From an uncultured Pelagibacteraceae bacterium (lineage in GTDB: Bacteria > Pseudomonadota > Alphaproteobacteria > Pelagibacterales > AG-422-B15), in NCBI GenBank assembly GCA_902517885.1, contig CABYDZ010000008.1, positions 1 to 45,660 on the forward strand: a stretch of 45,660 nucleotides of DNA, written 5' to 3'. This document shows, in pieces, positions 30,409 to 32,183 of the stretch. A program made the position numbers and the translations under genes. The first letter of the stretch is position 1. Each line of letters starts with the position of its first letter. The notes beneath the pieces are model-generated. The model ran no database searches, was not told the origin of the DNA, and saw only the letters and a program-made list of their open reading frames with translations.

Positions 30409-30747
30409 ATGAAAAATCCAGAGAGATATACAAATTACAATGATTTTTTTCCATTCTACTTAAGGGAACATAGAAAGAAAAGTACTAGAGTCTTTCATTA
30501 TTTTGGTACGATTGCGTATCAGGTTCTTTTTTGGACATTAATTACAACTCAAAATTTCTTATTTATACCTTTAATACTGCTTGCTGGATATGGACCAGCT
30601 TGGGTATCACACTTTTTTATCGAAAAGAATAAACCTGCGACTTTTAAATACCCACTGTGGTCCCTAATGGGTGATCACCATATGGTATGGTTAATGCTGA
30701 CAGGTAAGCTCAAAAAGAAATTAAATGAAGCTGGGGTTTCAGCTTAA
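30409..30747 (+). CDS. DUF962/Mpo1-like family protein
   Basis: 112 aa with the family pattern: 'YNDFFPFYLREHRKKSTRVFHYFGTI' (F..FYp.YL.eH....R..H..Gt), two membrane segments ('YQVLFWTLITTQNFLFIPLILLAGYGPAWVSHFFIEKNKPATF') and 'PLWSLMGDHHMVWLMLTGKL'. The conserved histidines (H in REH, RVFH, WVSHFF and GDHH) are those that bind iron in yeast Mpo1, a dioxygenase of 2-hydroxy fatty acid alpha-oxidation. Whether the bacterial protein has this activity is inference. Its end overlaps the convergent MAPEG gene by 9 bp. Confidence 0.85.
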   Translation: MKNPERYTNYNDFFPFYLREHRKKSTRVFHYFGTIAYQVLFWTLITTQNFLFIPLILLAGYGPAWVSHFFIEKNKPATFKYPLWSLMGDHHMVWLMLTGKLKKKLNEAGVSA

Positions 30748-31158
30748 TAAAATATAAACACTACCAACAAACATGAGAAAAAGAGCAGTTTGGGAAAATA
30801 ACCAAATAGCGCCCCGTATATTTGTATCAGTAAAACAAATGTGCCAAATTGAATGAGCTACTCTTAACAATAAGTAAACCCATGCACAGATGACTAGGAA
30901 TGCATTAGTGATATTAAAATAAATTATCATCGCTATCAAAAAGTAGAATAGAATAGGAAATTCAAATAAATTGCTGATATTGTTTTTCATCATCTTTAAA
31001 TACAAAGGCGCATCTTTGTAAGGCTCTATAGGAATACCACTTTCTTCCCAACTTTTATTCTTTCTCATTAAGTCAGTTGATGCAATTGTATGAATTAGTC
31101 CCACTATAAATGTAAGCAGGACTAATCCGATTGCAGGTAATAAAATATTTTCTGACAT
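30739..31158 (-). CDS. MAPEG family membrane protein (second of a tandem pair)
   Basis: Four-helix membrane protein of 139 aa. 'NNISNLFEFPILFYFLIAMIIYF' and 'WVYLLLRVAHSIWHICF' carry the MAPEG core (N.fE..p.Fy..., R..H...h). The family includes glutathione-dependent eicosanoid and glutathione transferases; many bacterial members are uncharacterised. The frame is open further upstream, but the ATG at 31158 is best: it overlaps the stop of the preceding MAPEG gene (TAATG) and gives the family N-terminus 'MSENILLPAIGLVLLTF'. Confidence 0.85.
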   Translation of the reverse strand: MSENILLPAIGLVLLTFIVGLIHTIASTDLMRKNKSWEESGIPIEPYKDAPLYLKMMKNNISNLFEFPILFYFLIAMIIYFNITNAFLVICAWVYLLLRVAHSIWHICFTDTNIRGAIWLFSQTALFLMFVGSVYILLS

Positions 31159-31595
31159 TACATCATCATAGAGCAAGCTCTGTACGCCATCCAACCAAGA
31201 ATGATTGTTGAAGGTAACCAAAATAGAGTCCTTACGGGTATTGCAATACCTGGAATGACCTTATTAAAGAATATATGTGTCAGAGTGTGTGCGACTCTCA
31301 ACCAGAAAAACCAAGTGGCCAATAGCACAAAATAACCATCAACATTCCCAGTTACGTAAATCATGATGCACACAGCATAGAAAAAAATTGGGAATTCGAA
31401 CAAATTGGTCAGATTTCTCTGACTATTTTGGATAGTCTCACCCCCACTATCAAATGTGGGTATTTTAAAGTCTTCTTCTTTGCTTTTTTTATCAATAATA
31501 ATGGATTTAAGCCTCAGAGTAGTCCCAAAGGCAAAAACAGCTAAAGAAAGCCATAACATATTGATGACCGGCTCAAAAATTAATTCAGGCGACAT
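31158..31595 (-). CDS. MAPEG family membrane protein (first of a tandem pair)
   Basis: 145 aa, four hydrophobic segments. The MAPEG core is 'NLTNLFEFPIFFYAVCIMIYV' and 'ATWFFWLRVAHTLTHIFFNKV'. The start has a strong ribosome-binding site (AAGGAG, 7 nt upstream on the minus strand). The downstream gene is a diverged paralogue read from a TAATG overlap, so the two products are probably made together and could form a mixed trimer; this is inference from the trimeric nature of the family. Confidence 0.85.
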   Translation of the reverse strand: MSPELIFEPVINMLWLSLAVFAFGTTLRLKSIIIDKKSKEEDFKIPTFDSGGETIQNSQRNLTNLFEFPIFFYAVCIMIYVTGNVDGYFVLLATWFFWLRVAHTLTHIFFNKVIPGIAIPVRTLFWLPSTIILGWMAYRACSMMM

Positions 31596-31666
31596 AACAA
31601 ACTCCTTGATTGAAATAAGAATCCAGTAAATTATATATACATCTATATTTTAAACCATATTTAATG

Positions 31667-31779
31667 AAAGGAGGTGATCTATGTCTATCAGTAGTATAGA
31701 GGAGCTTTGCTCGAGTAGTGAGATTCCATGTGATTGTAGATATGGAAACCTCCACTTTTTGAGTGGAGCTCCGTTTTAA
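31667..31779 (+). CDS. Small ORF (32 aa) with extended Shine-Dalgarno; possible leader peptide or regulatory transcript
   Basis: The ORF is 31681-31779; the span given includes its leader. GAAAGGAGGTGATC (31666-31679) is complementary over its full length to the usual bacterial 16S rRNA 3' tail, and the ATG follows at ideal spacing. The peptide starts MSISSIEELC and ends LSGAPF; it holds three Cys (10, 17, 19, the last two as CDC) and no membrane segment. Codons 24-30 form a hairpin: CTCCAC (31749-31754)/GTGGAG (31763-31768). A strong terminator follows the stop within 5 bp. No neighbour shares its strand and it resembles nothing I recognise. It may encode a real microprotein or be an RNA whose job is to bind ribosomes. 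Confidence 0.55.
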
Positions 31780-31783
31780 CTAC

Positions 31784-31816
31784 AATAAGCCCCCATTAAC
31801 TTGGGGGCTTATTTTT
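31784..31816 (+). terminator. Strong rho-independent terminator
   Basis: Perfect 11-bp stem AATAAGCCCCC (31784-31794) / GGGGGCTTATT (31803-31813), loop of 8, then a T run. It ends the small transcript from 31681 and touches the stop codon of the thioesterase gene on the other strand. Confidence 0.88.
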
Positions 31817-32183
31817 ATATCTTTAGATTAGGTTTAAATTTTCTTGTCTTATTTTTATCATTGATTGCAATGTATGAAAATTCCCCCACCGCCACATCAA
31901 CTTCTTTTTGATTCATTTCAGATCTTTTTGCAGTAATTTTAAAAATCATTTTGGATTGCTTAACACCTTTAACGGACCCATAAACATTAATAAATTTACC
32001 AACGTGCATTGGGTTTTTATATTTTACTTTTGATTCAACAAGTACTGCATTGCCCTTTGATACCAGTTGGGTCATGTAAATTCCTGCGTGCGCCATTTGT
32101 TTTACTACCCAAGCCCCATGTGCAGTACCGTAAGGATTGCTATCTGGTGGTTGACAAATATTTCTAATAATGAGCTTATCCAT
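31815..32183 (-). CDS. Hotdog-fold acyl-CoA thioesterase
   Basis: 122 aa with the hotdog pattern of YciA/PaaI-type thioesterases: 'PPDSNPYGTAHGAWVVKQMAHAGIYMTQLVSKGNAVLVESKVKYKNPMHVGKFINVYGSVKGVKQSKMIFKITA'. The conserved Asn-Pro-x-Gly...Gly-Trp and the 'NPMHVGK' turn are visible. It likely hydrolyses an acyl-CoA; chain preference is unknown. The start overlaps the VanZ-like gene by 8 bp, suggesting co-transcription. Confidence 0.82.
   Translation of the reverse strand: MDKLIIRNICQPPDSNPYGTAHGAWVVKQMAHAGIYMTQLVSKGNAVLVESKVKYKNPMHVGKFINVYGSVKGVKQSKMIFKITAKRSEMNQKEVDVAVGEFSYIAINDKNKTRKFKPNLKI

Follow-up and report, generated by a model that had tools for sequence, protein, structure and literature searches.

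In a 45,660-nucleotide stretch of Pelagibacteraceae DNA (the window), a solitary structured unit on the plus strand, from 31666 to ~31818, combines an extended Shine-Dalgarno sequence, a 32-codon open reading frame (ORF) held within a long hairpin, and a terminator. We give slightly less than an even chance to the reading that this unit is one Pelagibacterales family's version of an alphaproteobacterial structured mini-mRNA, present about once per genome and partly known as CC2171, that is translated, is largely indifferent to its peptide, and works by engaging ribosomes. Class-wide sequence comparison supports retention of a start codon at a fixed distance from a maximal Shine-Dalgarno sequence and of an in-frame stop ahead of the terminator; the peptide is mostly not retained, and what counts is probably the RNA or its translation. 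A unit translated yet largely peptide-indifferent would be an unusual combination, and it would mean that conservation and a perfect ribosome site do not suffice to show that a small ORF codes for a useful protein. Part of this family was already known, in Rfam, as one Caulobacter sRNA; the present comparisons suggest a class-wide reach and a pairing of translation with indifference to the peptide.

Architecture and conservation of the unit

The elements of the unit, with the evidence on which each was placed, are as follows.

31611-31660, plus strand: putative promoter or 5′ UTR region, with candidate TTGAAA and TATATA boxes read by eye
31666-31679, plus strand: extended Shine-Dalgarno GAAAGGAGGTGATC, able to pair over 14 nt with the 16S 3′ tail of this genome
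31681-31779, plus strand: 32-codon ORF (ATG TCT ... TAA) inside the hairpin, its peptide kept mainly at the ends in family f1
31691-31695, plus strand: P1 5′ strand GUAGU, a basal helix soon after the start codon (fold, family f1 alignment)
31701-31705, plus strand: P2 5′ strand GGAGC, unvarying in 11/11 family f1 sequences
31751-31767, plus strand: P3 local hairpin UYCACUU / GAGUGGA (family f1 consensus)
31768-31772, plus strand: P2 3′ strand GCUCC (family f1 alignment)
31779-31783, plus strand: P1 3′ strand ACUAC, directly before the terminator and including the final base of the stop codon (fold, family f1 alignment)
31784-31818, plus strand: predicted intrinsic terminator, a 12-pair stem (31784-31813) plus U run (family f1 alignment)

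The ORF starts with ATG at 31681-31683, its ATGTCT set one base 3′ of the Shine-Dalgarno sequence, ends with TAA at 31777-31779, and translates as MSISSIEELCSSSEIPCDCRYGNLHFLSGAPF. A promoter scan gave one site, inside the unit, and did not report the TTGAAA and TATATA boxes. The segment 31660-31820 folds at −66.5 kcal/mol (z −7.9; none of 200 shuffles did as well), and the part from start codon to terminator alone gives z −5.2; the basal helix by itself is ordinary in this AT-rich window, with at least four pairs in 15 of 40 shuffles. P1 lacks its outermost pair in one of the 11 family f1 sequences (L432), and P3 would be an alternative to the long hairpin drawn at the genus level, with two pairs that vary on one side only (U-G/C-G and U-G/U-A).

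An initial annotation, made from the letters of the window, had described a compact structured unit of 135 bp with an internal hairpin and its own terminator, alone on its strand. The compact structure and the terminator were borne out, but the length is ~150 nt and the hairpin proves to be a single long one that contains the ORF. The flanking genes are indeed both on the minus strand, encoding two MAPEG proteins on the left and a 4HBT thioesterase on the right, the upstream gene being divergent from the unit and the downstream gene convergent to it. The adjacent pair of MAPEG-family genes (30739-31595), perhaps a tandem duplication, also lies side by side in sister genera. The terminator loop (window ~31795-31802) in L010 and L011 reads AAGTTAAT versus ATTAACTT, inverted as if the hairpin had been flipped.

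Conservation in close relatives, whose absence the initial annotation had named in advance as a refutation, was found. BLAST recovered the unit in 26 of 36 same-genus genomes, its own included, at 88-100% identity and E values of 8.7e-57 or better, and nothing better than E 0.008 in 23 genomes of the other family. The neighboring 4HBT gene was present in exactly those 26 of the 59 genomes, so the absences concern the whole locus or the assembly. A covariance model of the unit (R1) matched 32 of 43 same-genus and 8 of 10 sister-genus genomes at 57-194 bits, the sister-genus scores spanning 57-99 bits. These counts were made by hand over 147 genomes with 44 matches, 83 matchless unlisted genomes being assigned to the other family from list order; the R1 matches in four genomes of family f2 (24.7-26.9 bits) were terminator hairpins without the 5′ block and were discarded. 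Gene order is the same in the sister genera, and the next gene is convergent in eight sister-genus loci.

We compared the unit with its surroundings in two genus members. Between the window and L016, pS of the flanking genes was 0.69 and 0.80, that is, silent sites are saturated, and the RNA differed at 4 of its 110 paired positions and at 5 of the 50 unpaired ones; in the ORF, changes fell on 2 of 19 silent sites and on 2 of 77 replacement sites. Against L026, the most divergent member of the genus, 9 of 110 paired and 7 of 50 unpaired positions had changed (ORF, 5/18.8 silent and 3/77.2 replacement). An RNA nearly unchanged beside saturated silent sites indicates that constraint acts on the nucleotides themselves, also at silent sites, which agrees with the earlier expectation that so much structure should be under selection. 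Within the genus, 25 of the 29 pairs of helix 1 never vary and the alignment contained no covariation; in family f1 covariation was confined to the terminator, where three pairs carry changes on both sides. Taken together, these comparisons support conservation of the RNA both as sequence and as fold. Its persistence in the streamlined SAR11 lineage, next to saturated silent sites, suggests that it is worth its cost there.

A class-wide family and its known relatives

A reading of the element as specific to its genus was ruled out by a by-class tally, a broader class draw and a scan of GTDB. In the tally, counted by hand, the 5′ block pattern occurred in 56 of 96 alphaproteobacterial genomes (that of the window included) versus 1 of 153 other Pseudomonadota, and the reversed pattern in 2 of 249; this draw favors complete genomes and repeats some families, and 33 of 154 genera matched. 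The broader draw from the class gave 92 of 387 genomes, with the reversed pattern in 1 of 387. The GTDB scan, with GAAAGGAGGTGRTC followed within 3 nt by RTGTC, yielded at least 120 stretches, and among the 80 matches listed 73 were alphaproteobacterial by title, three were named as Proteobacteria only, and four came from other phyla. Two of these four (Paenibacillus, L085 and L125) were rejected because the site there precedes a long ORF (136 and 1282 aa); the remaining two (L082 and L106) lie on MAG contigs. These distributions suggest an element that is class-wide and present about once per genome in the Alphaproteobacteria that carry it. The extended ribosome site followed by RTG was also seen in at least 120 viral stretches.

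For class-wide tests we collected 205 sites, 164 of which exceeded the terminator score threshold; removal of near duplicates and odd lengths left 131 units, and all tests on them are conditioned on the RTGTC search pattern and a strong terminator. In the 164 units the median distance from start codon to terminator is 124 nt; at least five closing pairs near the start codon are present in 154 of them. The basal helix was found in 125 of 131 units (42.9 expected), and fold z was below −2 in 102 of 131. The genus model R1 matched 17 of 23 class-wide loci at 13-34.5 bits, the best scores (34.5 and 30.9) being in AT-rich genomes; as terminators and antisense give a background of ~27 bits, the lower-scoring matches lend support by position alone. 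In four loci (L173, L310, L313, and L395) the same extended site precedes ORFs of 56-59 aa with a signal-peptide-like start, versus the usual 13-36 codons.

Over the whole window, only a tRNA passed the Rfam gathering thresholds. Among 22 weaker matches were CC2171 and BjrC1505; the others (rimP, Phe_leader, etc.) fell mostly on the terminator or looked like chance and were set aside. The CC2171 model (RF01867) scored 22.7 bits on the window copy, short of its cut-off of 75, with E 0.0072 (E 0.0049 in its own genome). The window unit shares with CC2171 the 5′ block GAAAGGAGGUGAUC, one or two bases, a start codon and UCU, and likewise a hairpin domain that starts a short way past the start codon and extends to the terminator; it differs in having one spacer base instead of two and in an ORF that fills the hairpin. 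Rfam types CC2171 as an sRNA and its entry names no reading frame. Beyond the window, the same model recognized 15 of the 20 class-wide units sampled, with E no higher than 0.0044 and two of them above the cut-off, and 3 of 18 other units at the cut-off, so the family appears to be of the CC2171 kind in a wide sense. We regard the window copy as CC2171-like and not as a member, the homology being suggested by architecture and weak scores. As judged from these comparisons, the element is part of a class-wide family partly known as CC2171, a point missing from the initial annotation. CC2171 itself reportedly comes from the work of Landt in 2008 on Caulobacter small RNAs. The model of BjrC1505 (RF02356), an alphaproteobacterial sRNA, covered the whole unit at 21.6 bits, below its cut-off of 50, and a Bradyrhizobium unit of the family (L121) had no match to it at the gathering threshold.

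The literature on these models is sparse. Our search combining CC2171 with Caulobacter returned no paper; in the sections accessible to us, the Rfam 15 description adds one covarying pair for CC2171 and a Mesorhizobium huakuii survey lists one RF01867 match, neither section stating a function, and BjrC1505 appears as one list entry. The sections available of studies on Pelagibacter RNAs (PMC2704228) and on Bradyrhizobium (PMC5082802) contain nothing recognizable as this element. Ribosome profiling in Caulobacter found two earlier predicted ncRNAs to be translated (PMC4117421), and 33% of 54 newly found translated small ORFs in Sinorhizobium lie on annotated sRNAs (PMC10117765). In the passages on rnTrpL/peTrpL, the latter source describes a small RNA that ends at a terminator, carries a short ORF that is translated, and acts in trans, as would be the case here, but that RNA derives from the trp attenuator and is leaderless, whereas the window unit is solitary and has a maximal Shine-Dalgarno sequence.

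Ribosome site, start and stop codons, and peptide

The initial annotation had reported a 14-nt complement to the 16S tail, far stronger than any other ribosome site in the window, and both statements held. The 16S end of the genome itself, ...GGATCACCTCCTTTCT (the sole match to a 16S end in this genome), pairs with all 14 nt of GAAAGGAGGTGATC. The 13-mer core has one mismatch-free site in the window; the other 14 listed sites have three mismatches and are about as frequent as in shuffles (mean 11.7). In the assembled genome (85% complete; pattern with closing H) the 14-mer occurs in two places, this site and the antisense of the 16S end, and with a start codon it occurs once each in 26 of 59 genomes of the order. 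The same literal sequence serves as a 16S complement in PMC6943124. The term "perfect" applies to the window but not to the genus as a norm: the GATC form is found in 3 of 26 genus copies (the window, L002, and L003), and the other 23 carry GGTC, which is weaker by one G·U pair.

The site may not be simply exposed, a lead that comes from structure prediction. In the window it is predicted to be mostly paired, in a weak local hairpin with AUGUCU, the GGA having an unpaired probability of ~0.1-0.15; the class-wide median for the core is 0.34. As a lead only, this local pairing might be why TC is conserved after the start codon. An internal anti-Shine-Dalgarno closing the site was considered and rejected, since it is ordinary in the window (z −0.94), and as a general feature it fared little better: 24 of 131 class-wide units fall below −2, which is above chance, but the median is −0.39.

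Start and stop codons look selected across the class. We searched 193 genomes for the 14-mer with no start codon required and counted 78 sites by hand: 31 resemble 16S-end antisense, 46 are followed at a distance of one or two bases by ATG, GTG, or TTG, and one fits neither description; the reversed control gave ~10 sites in eight genomes. TC follows the start codon in 39 of the 46. Three different start codons at one place point to initiation and not to a mere motif. An in-frame stop precedes the terminator in 131/131 units versus 90.6 expected, the other two frames reaching 105/131 and 103/131; the stop test is empty in the AT-rich window, where all 40 shuffles contain one. The window ORF fills its hairpin, and class-wide the stop lies at about one-half to two-thirds of it.

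An alternative is a small mRNA for a functional microprotein, in which the strong ribosome site simply gives high output. We hold this to be unlikely, though it is the strongest of the competing accounts. It would explain why start, stop, and frame are kept, and why ORF length across the 11 family f1 sequences is confined to 32 or 33 codons while the post-stop spacer differs in length by 0, 2, or 3 nt. The C-terminal GNLHF-SGAP is likewise kept in all 11. Five distinct ORFs of the genus give pS 0.054 and pN 0.024, a ratio of ~0.45 on few changes, so that a mild constraint on the peptide is possible within the window's genus. A few class-wide codons vary silently only (Rhodobacterales codons 2 and 11, MSHC codon 10).

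Against this stands the behavior of the peptide outside the genus. In five class-wide peptide groups pN/pS was 0.77, 1.40, 0.93, 0.97, and 0.94 (172, 134, 12, 24, and 19 pairs, respectively), close to 1 and, except for 1.40, inside the off-frame range of 0.49-1.35. The family f1 ORF has a ratio of 0.66 overall, and in its last 13 codons pS (0.164) and pN (0.156) give 0.95, silent sites being equally constrained. In many of the conserved codons the third position is fixed as well, e.g., the first four in Sphingomonadales. The CDC motif is missing in L026, the divergent member of the genus, and in each of the seven sister-genus sequences aligned, the middle of the peptide is also replaced between genera, and the peptides of different orders look unrelated past the first residues. 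Class-wide, the peptide evolves like off-frame sequence and seems to matter little. The proposal of a Cys-containing microprotein is thus weakened by the loss of its Cys motif and by a lack of constraint beyond that of off frames across the class, but the modest excess of silent over replacement change within the genus leaves it some probability in this lineage; the comparison of synonymous and nonsynonymous changes suggested with it gave the same divided answer.

Possible mechanism and competing accounts

An RNA that engages or titrates ribosomes, one of the roles offered at the outset, is compatible with these sequence comparisons and is the one we favor. In the scheme we propose, the RNA would be transcribed alone and end at its terminator, and 30S subunits would dock on the 14-nt site, which could take up a free 16S tail. 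Initiation would force open P1, which begins a few codons after the AUG; the ribosome would then make a throw-away peptide and leave before the terminator. A 30S initiation complex covers a track reaching the first codons after the start. P1 begins within that track, so docking and P1 should exclude each other. The readout would be ribosome occupancy: either initiating ribosomes are held, or the RNA switches between a ribosome-opened and a closed form, which would differ in stability or in exposed partner sequence. Extended to the whole class, this becomes a regulatory RNA that delivers its output by being translated, with an irrelevant peptide, acting as a gauge or buffer of free ribosomes, also in a SAR11 lineage without an Hfq match; we put this forward tentatively, as a possibility well short of even. 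Should the signal indeed lie in translating this RNA, the element would provide a direct way to test how bacteria gauge the availability of ribosomes.

Less probable again is an RNA sponge, whose GGAGGU stretch would capture sRNAs with CCUCC seeds. Such logic exists in alphaproteobacteria: the relevant passages of PMC12559287 describe CrfA of Caulobacter, which pairs with the CCUCC-type sRNAs SisA-D, and CCUCCUCCC loops appear in the portion consulted of PMC3927594. CrfA was, however, found among Hfq-associated RNA pairs, and those passages mention no ORF. Our search for Hfq matched 0 of 59 Pelagibacterales genomes (31 of them at least 90% complete; that of the window, 85%) versus 5 of 14 control genomes (Caulobacter and four others), which makes a CrfA-like sponge unlikely here. 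A sponge also needs neither a start codon at a fixed distance nor an in-frame stop.

A pure ribosome decoy, which would hold 30S subunits by 16S pairing alone and be translated only incidentally, appears marginally less probable than the sponge. The full 14-nt complementarity and the uniqueness of the 14-mer in the assembled genome, bar the 16S antisense, are what a decoy would show, but the class-wide selection on start and stop codons indicates that translation matters and not 16S pairing alone. The site is, moreover, predicted to be partly paired, and one locus would need very strong transcription to matter.

That the unit is an attenuator or leader of a neighboring gene, as in the leader peptide first suggested, is very improbable: the RNA lies on the same strand between yhhQ (Vut_1) and arfB in many Rhodobacterales-type loci (e.g., L073, L087, and L155), but in the 71 class-wide loci whose flanks could be read, the next gene downstream runs the same way in 35 and the opposite way in 36, and it is convergent in the window and the eight sister-genus loci. 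A general link to arfB was rejected as well, since in Hyphomonadaceae-type loci (L079, L137, L326, and L327) arfB lies upstream on the other strand, and the association is order-specific; in Rhizobiaceae-type loci the neighbor is acs. The upstream gene is co-directional in 47 of the 71 loci, and the RNA might thus in some orders be cut from a longer upstream mRNA.
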